From the NCBI GenBank assembly GCA_902583715.1, contig CACHXC010000010.1:1-47686 (forward strand): a DNA stretch of 47,686 bases, written 5' to 3'. Below, one piece after another: positions 1,354 to 47,686 of the stretch. Within the stretch, counting starts at the first letter, position 1. Each line of letters starts with the position of its first letter. This DNA comes from an uncultured SAR116 cluster alpha proteobacterium. Lineage in GTDB: Bacteria > Pseudomonadota > Alphaproteobacteria > Puniceispirillales > Puniceispirillaceae. Made by a program: the position numbers and the translations under genes. The notes under the pieces were generated by a model, which ran no database searches, had not been told where the DNA came from, and saw only the letters and a program-made list of their open reading frames with translations.

Positions 1354-1476
1354 ACACGCGATTTCACACATGGGGTCGGTTATCACTCAGTCAATCCTGT
1401 CGTGACGGCCATCCGGTGAAGGCAGTGGTCTTTCATTTCCCCATGGAGGTTTAACCGGAGAACAGGAGTAATAAAA

Positions 1477-46802: not shown

Positions 46803-47120
46803 GTGACAGCCAGAATATATAAACCAAGCAAAACAGCCATGCAGTCTGGTCGCAATGCGACGGTAAGCCGCGGCCATGATTGGGTTCTGGAATTTCCTCG
46901 TCAAACTGCGGCGCGTCCTGATCGGTTAATGGGTTGGCAATCCTCGTCTGATACGGCGCGTCAGGTCAAAATGCGCTTTCCGGACAGAGAAACCGCCACC
47001 GCCTATGCAGAATCACATAATATTGCCTATCAGGTGAGCGAGCCAAAATTGCGTCGGGTTAAGCCGCGTGCTTATGCGGATAATTTTGCCTTTACCCGCA
47101 ATGGGGCGTGGACACATTAA
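46803..47120 (+). CDS. Complex I accessory subunit, NDUFS4-like
   Basis: 105 residues from a GTG start. Matches the ETC complex I subunit conserved region (PF04800): TARIYKPSKTAMQSGRNATV, then WVLEF, LMGWQSSSDTARQVKMRFPD and ATAYAESHNIAYQV. Alphaproteobacteria share this accessory subunit with mitochondria, which supports the class assignment. It acts on the matrix-type peripheral arm of NADH:quinone oxidoreductase. It lies alone after tRNA-Pro, away from nuo genes. Confidence 0.93.
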   Translation: MTARIYKPSKTAMQSGRNATVSRGHDWVLEFPRQTAARPDRLMGWQSSSDTARQVKMRFPDRETATAYAESHNIAYQVSEPKLRRVKPRAYADNFAFTRNGAWTH

Positions 47121-47281
47121 CCCCATTTGCAAGCTGGCGATTGCGATAAAACTGGTTACGGTGTGGGCGAGACCAGCCAAGTTATGCCTTCGCCGTAATT
47201 TTTTTCATGAAAATCTTTAAAGACTGGCACCCGATGCCGTTACAGGGATTCGGGTAGAATGACTTCTTAAACACCATCGGG

Positions 47282-47338
47282 CGCCGCGGCTACACACGCA
47301 ATTTTCATGCCGGTGCATGTAGCGGCGATCTTTTTTTT
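47282..47338 (+). terminator. Intrinsic terminator 1 of the 3' small-RNA region
   Basis: CGCC plus GCTACA (with a 3-base bulge) pair with TGTAGCGGCG, followed after ATC by eight T. No gene lies between the NDUFS4-like stop and this hairpin except 47121-47281, which shows no open frame worth calling. Confidence 0.6.
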
Positions 47339-47382
47339 AAAAATATCGCTTTTTTTTGCATTTGGCTTTGTTTTACTGCGAA

Positions 47383-47399
47383 TTGGCATGCTGGTTGCC
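47383..47399 (+). promoter_or_regulatory. Candidate sigma-54 promoter 1
   Basis: TTGGCATG, 4 bases, TTGCC. The -24 GG (47385-47386) and -12 GC (47397-47398) are in the required register. One base differs from TTGGCACG. Preceded by a very AT-rich stretch (47331-47375). Confidence 0.55.
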
Positions 47400-47409
47400 T
47401 ATCGGTAAG

Positions 47410-47502
47410 CATCACATGTTAAAGGCCAGAAAATTGACGCATGGTGATCTGGCTTTCCCTTGAGATCTCTCTCCCGCTGGTGCGCCGGTGGGGGTTTTTT
47501 TT
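47410..47502 (+). ncRNA. Candidate small RNA 1, sigma-54 dependent
   Basis: Predicted transcript of about 93 nt from the sigma-54 site to terminator 2. Contains AAAGGCCAG pairing with CTGGCTTT, and ATCAC pairing with GTGAT across it, so a pseudoknot is possible. The pyrimidine run TCTCTCTCCC (47466-47475) could pair with Shine-Dalgarno sequences. No open frame with a ribosome site fits here. Coordinates are predicted, not measured. Confidence 0.4.
47471..47502 (+). terminator. Intrinsic terminator 2
   Basis: 10-bp stem with two G-T pairs, loop TGCG, followed by eight T. The right arm CGCCGGTGGGG recurs in terminator 3. Confidence 0.75.
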
Positions 47503-47580
47503 ATGCGCGTGCGTGGCTAACTCTCTGCGCCGTTTTTGGGTGGTTGTTCTGCCGCATTAAATTAAGCGGGCGCATCACTA

Positions 47581-47597
47581 TTGGCATGACATTTGCA
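47581..47597 (+). promoter_or_regulatory. Candidate sigma-54 promoter 2
   Basis: TTGGCATG, 4 bases, TTGCA: the same -24 block as promoter 1 and the same GG-GC register (47583 and 47595). Exactly 198 bases downstream of the first. Confidence 0.55.
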
Positions 47598-47607
47598 CCT
47601 GAGCCCG

Positions 47608-47683
47608 TACGGCTATCCAGTGATCTCCAGTTATTGGTAATGCCAGAACCCCATCGGTAGACACGCCGGTGGGGTTCTTTTTT
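47608..47683 (+). ncRNA. Candidate small RNA 2, sigma-54 dependent
   Basis: Predicted transcript of about 76 nt from the second sigma-54 site to terminator 3. Shares GATCTC (47622-47627) with small RNA 1 and carries CTCC that could pair with Shine-Dalgarno sequences; otherwise the two differ. The open frame 47460-47660 crosses both promoters and terminator 2 and is not credible. Confidence 0.4.
47645..47683 (+). terminator. Intrinsic terminator 3
   Basis: AGAACCCCATCGG pairs with CCGGTGGGGTTCT over 13 bases (one G-T), loop of 8, then a T run. A very strong terminator at the window's end. Confidence 0.85.
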
Positions 47684-47686
47684 AGC

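Follow-up and report, generated by a model that had tools for sequence, protein, structure and literature searches.

Organization of the locus

The window, the whole 47,686 bp stretch of DNA that was analysed, is the entire contig C10 of its source genome (G000), a SAR116 genome of 1.49 Mb and 60% completeness. Near its right end, a DUF192 protein gene, a tRNA-Pro gene and an NDUS4 protein gene are followed by two sigma-54 sites, each preceding a predicted small RNA, and the contig stops 3 bases past the T-run of the second terminator. The features of this region are listed below; RNA starts were placed 12 nt after the -12 C of each promoter.

46803..47120 (+): NDUS4 domain protein gene, the locus marker (Pfam PF04800, E 4.2e-32)
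47226..47315 (+): conserved block holding CCCGAT, TTCGGG and ATCGGG, 79/90 identical in the relative G002; candidate activator-binding region
47383..47398 (+): sigma-54 promoter 1 (-24/-12), TTGGCATG-CTGG-TTGC = TTGGCATGCTGGTTGC (exact match)
47410..47502 (+): predicted small RNA 1, about 93 nt (start from promoter geometry; core conserved in G002)
47471..47502 (+): intrinsic terminator 1, stem 47471-47494 plus T-run (terminator scan, fold)
47581..47596 (+): sigma-54 promoter 2 (-24/-12), TTGGCATG-ACAT-TTGC = TTGGCATGACATTTGC (exact match)
47608..47683 (+): predicted small RNA 2, about 76 nt, one of three copies of a dispersed family (start from promoter geometry; family comparison)
47620..47634 (+): inner hairpin of RNA 2, its loop (CUCCA, 47625-47629) being anti-Shine-Dalgarno-like (three-copy RNAalifold consensus)
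47645..47683 (+): intrinsic terminator 2, stem 47645-47678 plus T-run (terminator scan; compensated pairs)

Open reading frames overlap the RNA region, the longest being 66 aa with a TTG start, and none is gene-like in appearance. Elsewhere in the window, an Rfam match to the rpsB sRNA (RF01815) was seen at 1365-1472 (+), its 43.5 bits barely above the cut-off of 40.

An NDUS4 match was found in 10 of the 16 genomes of the genus, namely the source genome, its nearest relative by match (G002) and eight others. The setting in G002 is the same, with antiporter/complex-I-type genes (assigned by reading), a DUF192-type gene, tRNA-Pro, NDUS4 and then RNA 1. In all eight other NDUS4-bearing members a tRNA-Arg(tct) gene follows NDUS4 and neither RNA core is present in the locus read, whereas in G002 the tRNA-Arg(tct) gene lies about 3 kb past RNA 1. 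RNA 1 therefore sits in a slot of inserted extra DNA.

Sigma-54 promoters and terminators

Exact matches to TTGGCATG-N4-TTGC occur at only two places in the window, 47383 and 47581, 198 bases apart as the preliminary description of this DNA had reported. Relaxing the search to two mismatches gave 15 matches where 13.2 were expected, and the exact sites alone are therefore conspicuous. The terminators and RNA lengths of about 93 and 76 nt given in the same description were also recovered, a stem and T-run closing each unit (47410-47502 and 47608-47683). The whole window has three strong terminators (those above the threshold of the scan script) on the plus strand and none on the other, and two of the three lie behind the two sites. 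Sixty simulated windows preserving base-to-base frequencies contained a mean of 0.1 sites and no site-plus-terminator pair, compared with two pairs in the real window.

There are 184 occurrences of the pattern TTGGCAYGN4TTGC across 61 related genomes and 14 of its reversed control. The one-base departure from consensus shared by the two sites, to which attention had been drawn earlier, is real but does not distinguish them: CATG instead of CACG is found in all eight sites of the source genome, and such a local norm is by itself no sign of common descent. Sigma-54 sites precede Pfam-confirmed flagellin genes in four genomes (G000, G002, G031 and G044), rod/hook-type flagellar genes in G020 and fliS in G000; others of the sites read lie within coding sequence or ahead of unknown ORFs. 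The flagellin genes of three genomes have a second site upstream of the first, at a distance of 171 bases in G000 (L052:3300 and 3471), 182 in G002 (L053:2709 and 2891) and 188 in G031 (L054:3024 and 3212), all on the minus strand.

Conservation of RNA 1

RNA 1 consists of a hairpin, GGCCAGA/UCUGGCU, then a pyrimidine-rich stretch, UUUCCCUUGAGAU, and the terminator. Its core (47424-47468) is identical to that of G002 at 43 of 45 positions. Promoter 1 reads TTGGCATG-GCGA-TTGC in G002, keeping all 12 fixed bases and one of the four spacer bases (13/16 overall), and terminator 1 is identical at 24 of 34 positions. The conserved block lies 68-157 bases upstream of promoter 1; identity falls to 41/86 and 38/67 in its flanks, and to 13/25 in the third in-between stretch of the unit. 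Judged by this sequence comparison, the pattern is the expected trace of a putative enhancer region, a core promoter and an RNA. The fold of RNA 1 taken alone is unremarkable (z -1.5 in the window and -2.3 in G002), and the RNA was found in only two of the searched genomes, G000 and G002.

The dispersed family of RNA 2

When the region was used as a BLAST query, small matches came up close to the predicted start of RNA 2, in a further genome, G001 (E 0.005), and on contig C13 of the source genome (E 0.022), both weak alone. Together with the window copy they make up a family of three, with the common layout TTGGCAT-N5-TTG(C/T), 10-11 bases, TACGGCTATCCA, 0-5 bases, GTGATCTCCAGTT and a terminator; both internal blocks are identical in all three copies. 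The sites of the other two copies are TTGGCATCCAGTTTGC and TTGGCATGTTTCTTGT. The GG/GC spacing emphasised in the preliminary description is kept at promoter 1 of G002 but not throughout the RNA 2 family, the G001 copy having GT in place of GC at -12.

The whole-RNA folds of the three copies are alike (z -6.9, -7.3 and -4.9), sharing an outer stem, the inner hairpin with the CUCCA loop, and the terminator. RNAalifold found two-sided compensation in 5 of 28 consensus pairs, all of them in the terminator stem. The outer and inner stems show one-sided changes only, plus three broken or gapped cells, and therefore rest mainly on sequence identity.

Of 136 genomes of the order, only G000 and G001 carry the exact RNA 2 pattern, and it is absent from all of the 43 best genomes. 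A covariance model (R1), run with search filters that lose some weak matches, gave three strong places in the 136 genomes, in agreement with the exact pattern. Weak R1 matches in G034 (E 0.038) and G044 (E 0.063) were rejected as looking like coding sequence by eye, and the 280 bases inspected there hold no -24/-12 site or terminator. The family is thus narrow and dispersed. One pattern per RNA gave no exact match in IMG/VR, where phage carriage was looked for.

The 12-mer complementary to the loop, with up to two mismatches, has 72 places in the source genome against 50 for the reversed control. Of 30 loci kept from three genomes, the 25 on centre were inspected by eye and none showed a clear start-codon target; the exact matches among the loci inspected are the RNA copies themselves. 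The CUCC motif is in a hairpin loop in RNA 2 only (three-copy consensus).

The two RNA cores have only GUGAUCU in common, which may be chance. The preliminary description had read the two units as tandem small RNAs. Both are present in the window, but a conserved tandem unit is not borne out by relatives: G002 has RNA 1 at this locus without RNA 2 beside it, the eight other genus members read at this locus have neither, and the RNA 2 family is dispersed. The tandem placing therefore looks incidental.

Sigma-54, activators and Hfq

The source genome encodes sigma-54 (PF04552, E 3.1e-62), so the absence of rpoN, named in the preliminary description as a refutation, does not apply. The domain is present in 44 of 61 related genomes, G000 included, and was not found in G001, a 70%-complete genome. 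Four proteins with the Sigma54_activat domain were found in the source genome. NtrC (570.8 bits) and NtrX (630.6 bits) exceed their NCBIfam cut-offs of 558.6 and 600; the two others adjoin fliS on contig C4 and neither reaches an NCBIfam cut-off, the minus-strand one (403 aa) having FlbD as its best model. On contig C1, some 2 kb separate the gene for NtrX from that for Hfq (E 6.7e-31).

No enteric-type NtrC box was found above shuffle level at 22 promoters. When the conserved block was compared with 20 other sigma-54 sites, those of fliS in G000 and G002 were the only ones to match, at 13 of 16 positions, and shuffles did as well in 0 and 2 of 30 cases. The sequence common to the block and the fliS upstream region in both genomes is ATTCGGGTAG; the match is not kept at the corresponding sites of G005 and G010. 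As a shared upstream motif for sigma-54 sites in general, nothing beyond this fliS match was found. By analogy with MmgR of Sinorhizobium (see below), NtrC is a possible activator, short of being the probable one, and a flagellar enhancer-binding protein is to be entertained after it; the odds, which had leaned to NtrC, became nearly even since the one upstream match of note is a fliS promoter.

It is conceivable, and of the rival explanations the most credible, that the same RNA genes belong to a flagellar circuit, in which a flagellar enhancer-binding protein would activate them and they would tune flagellar genes. The sigma-54 sites ahead of flagellin, rod/hook-type and fliS genes, the two activators beside fliS and the occurrence of ATTCGGGTAG at both places are consistent with such a circuit, and a precedent exists in Campylobacter, where, according to the portion consulted of one report, small RNAs take part in flagellar control (PMC11187230). 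However, the ATTCGGGTAG match comes from one comparison among 20 and does not persist in G005 and G010, and the RNAs and the flagellar genes of C4 are on different contigs.

Relation to known small RNAs

Rfam contains Qrr and CrcZ families. CrcZ and CrcY of Pseudomonas and Azotobacter are small RNAs under RpoN, and CrcZ is longer, with repeated A-rich motifs. A scan of 47370-47686 against Rfam at E up to 10 gave four matches, and none of the Qrr, CrcZ, alpha-r8 or alpha-r14-like families matched RNA 1 or RNA 2. The candidates ctRNA_pGA1 (22.8 bits, cut-off 45) and NsiR1 (21.7 bits, cut-off 39) were rejected as terminator-driven by appearance. CrcZ/CrcY thus resemble RNA 1 and RNA 2 in RpoN control but give no Rfam match, and the same holds for Qrr of Vibrio, a sigma-54-dependent RNA (PMC10162802, extract) with several siblings per genome (PMC12559287, extract). 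Identity with Qrr or CrcZ was therefore rejected, as the preliminary description had anticipated in calling the sequences not recognisable as those.

The alpha-r8 family (Rfam RF00519) comprises MmgR of Sinorhizobium and SisA-D of Caulobacter. In the consulted section of one source, its members are described as short, Hfq-associated alphaproteobacterial RNAs with sibling copies and an anti-Shine-Dalgarno stretch, the core of which is UUUCCUCCCU (PMC12559287). Both RpoD and RpoN promoters are listed for MmgR, and the RNA is NtrC-induced (PMC7143759, in part), which provides an alphaproteobacterial precedent for placing such RNAs under sigma-54. RNA 1 and RNA 2 differ from this family in having neither the UUUCCUCCCU core nor a match to RF00519, and in RNA 2 the CUCC sits in a closed hairpin loop. 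The closest analogue of the RNA 2 fold is alpha-r14/NfeR1 of rhizobia, for which passages of PMC7143759 describe three hairpins, a sigma-70 promoter and an anti-Shine-Dalgarno motif unpaired in hairpin loops on variable stems. RNA 2 differs from it in carrying a sigma-54 site and in folding into a two-part hairpin followed by the terminator.

Among the literature matches listed, titles and opening lines of abstracts held no description of RNA 1 or RNA 2. The two units are a well-supported pair of candidates for new RNAs of a kind, sigma-54-activated small RNAs, that is already known. The earlier statement that no equivalent had been described here thus holds for the RNAs themselves and not for the alphaproteobacteria at large, given the RpoN promoter listed for MmgR in the part consulted of PMC7143759.

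Alpha-r8-type and other candidate sigma-54 RNAs in relatives

At E up to 0.1 the Rfam alpha-r8/MmgR model matched 45 of 61 relatives, 20 of which scored above the cut-off. At the same limit 7 of 14 control genomes matched, one above the cut-off, so weak matches need care. Four alpha-r8 matches stand behind sigma-54 sites, in G002 (21.2 bits), G030 (30.7), G034 (27.5) and G026 (24.6), all below the 41-bit cut-off of RF00519. Five of the 136 genomes of the order, from four genera, contain the strict pattern TTGGCAY-N5-TTGCC-N(38-68)-TCCTCCCT, and the control gave 0 of 136. A species-wide scan for a sigma-54 site plus the alpha-r8 core returned 61 stretches, five of which (L194, L196, L204, L224 and L245) are the strict-pattern RNAs; among the 56 others, those from Rhizobium and Agrobacterium appear to be a single gene start that they share, read in antisense. 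On contig C1 the source genome also holds alpha-r8 candidates distinct from RNA 1 and RNA 2, which at 30.9 and 27.9 bits fall short of the 41-bit cut-off. G002 carries several near-identical alpha-r8-type RNAs, three on two contigs (L184:14-84, L184:7354-7424 and L183:1444-1514), with no sigma-54 site in the upstream bases inspected.

G030 (SAR116 AG-911-J17) has a tandem sigma-54 pair of its own, at L055:2968 and 3160 (-), 192 bases apart, which consists of a long structured RNA and then an alpha-r8-type RNA; the first of these is also present in G035 (L056:2768, +). Other candidates were seen along the way. G014 and G013 (L103:2056 (+) and L185:1872 (+)) have in common a candidate RNA in which about 120 nt and then a strong terminator come after a sigma-54 site. 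In G044, at L064:12763 (+), a two-hairpin RNA (fold z -5.0) closed by a terminator lies behind a sigma-54 site. In two Alphaproteobacteria MAGs (L220:6154-6225 (-) and L222:3085-3156 (+)) a sigma-54-like site stands above a GC-rich hairpin, which by eye carries CCUCCUCCCU in its loop.

These RNAs bear on a further explanation, that RNA 1 is a sibling of alpha-r8 (MmgR/Sis) which has diverged strongly while retaining a sigma-54 promoter. The layout is alike, with a hairpin, a UUUCC-type stretch and a terminator. A model (R2) built from four sigma-54-driven alpha-r8-type RNAs had its best window match, over the full model, at 47411-47500 (11.7 bits, E 0.5), and its best match in L051 was RNA 1 of G002, again over the full model (12.1 bits, E 0.38), neither being significant. 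However, another place in L051 reached 11.5 bits, the terminator alone could carry such scores, the Rfam alpha-r8 model is absent at E up to 10 and the UUUCCUCCCU core is missing. We consider this kinship rather unlikely.

Neighbours of the RNAs and the leader explanation

RNA 2, or both units, could instead be the attenuator leader of a downstream gene, with a sigma-54 start and a conditional terminator. The contig stops directly after terminator 2, which would suit a leader, as would the same-direction DctP transporter gene about 390 bases past the terminator of the G001 copy, with short ORFs on both strands between, and the overlapping short ORFs on both strands past RNA 1 in G002. At the C13 copy, however, the next gene, for a cytochrome c, runs opposite to RNA 2, and no closely spaced same-direction gene was recognised at the other copies. 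This makes a leader improbable. Status as a stand-alone RNA gene is clear at the C13 copy only; convergent neighbours at all copies, considered at one stage, were dropped as clearly true only there. The ORF beside that copy (L086:2279-2758, -) matches the M24 peptidase profile over positions 110-208 of 208 only, and may be a truncated DddP-like gene.

That promoter-like sites arose by chance ahead of ordinary terminators is very hard to credit, for although the consensus is short and shows no window excess with two mismatches, none of the 60 simulated windows had such a pair and there is conservation both in G002 and in the RNA 2 family copies.

Proposed function of the two RNA genes

The two units are best explained as genes for sigma-54-activated trans-acting small RNAs, to which we give a probability of about 0.6. 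Both comparative tests, the footprint of unit 1 against G002 and the three-copy family of RNA 2, favour sigma-54-driven RNA genes, and on this sequence evidence the proposal of such genes in the preliminary description is supported. Counting against it, each RNA occurs in just two searched genomes, both are missing from most relatives, and in G001 RNA 2 has GT at -12 and no rpoN was found. Conservation of promoter and RNA cores, the terminators, sigma-54, the activators and Hfq are established at the sequence level. From these we infer transcription, the start sites, the use of Hfq and pairing.

As small RNA genes of this kind, the units would operate as follows. Sigma-54 RNA polymerase would sit at each -24/-12 site awaiting an ATP-driven enhancer-binding protein, which, bound upstream and once active, would open the promoter to give an RNA of 76-93 nt. 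The intrinsic terminator would end each RNA with a 3′ poly-U tail suited to Hfq, and the RNA would then bind Hfq and pair with mRNAs. The CUCCA loop of RNA 2 could cover ribosome-binding sites (GGAG), and the pairing region of RNA 1 would be the pyrimidine-rich UUUCCCUUGAGAU after its hairpin.

A broader and speculative reading, which we hold to be doubtful, is that SAR116 bacteria use sigma-54 as a hub for small RNAs that block ribosomes, with three or more unrelated types having been recruited separately (the RNA 2 family, RNA 1 and the alpha-r8-type siblings of several genera, with a further tandem pair in AG-911-J17). If so, it would provide a nitrogen- or motility-gated brake on translation in an ocean bacterium. 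Judging by titles and the beginnings of abstracts, small-RNA regulation in SAR116 seems hardly studied. If real, the two RNA genes would extend the link between sigma-54 and small RNAs known from MmgR to new RNA families, and could serve in metatranscriptomes as probes of the timing of sigma-54 activity in the sea.
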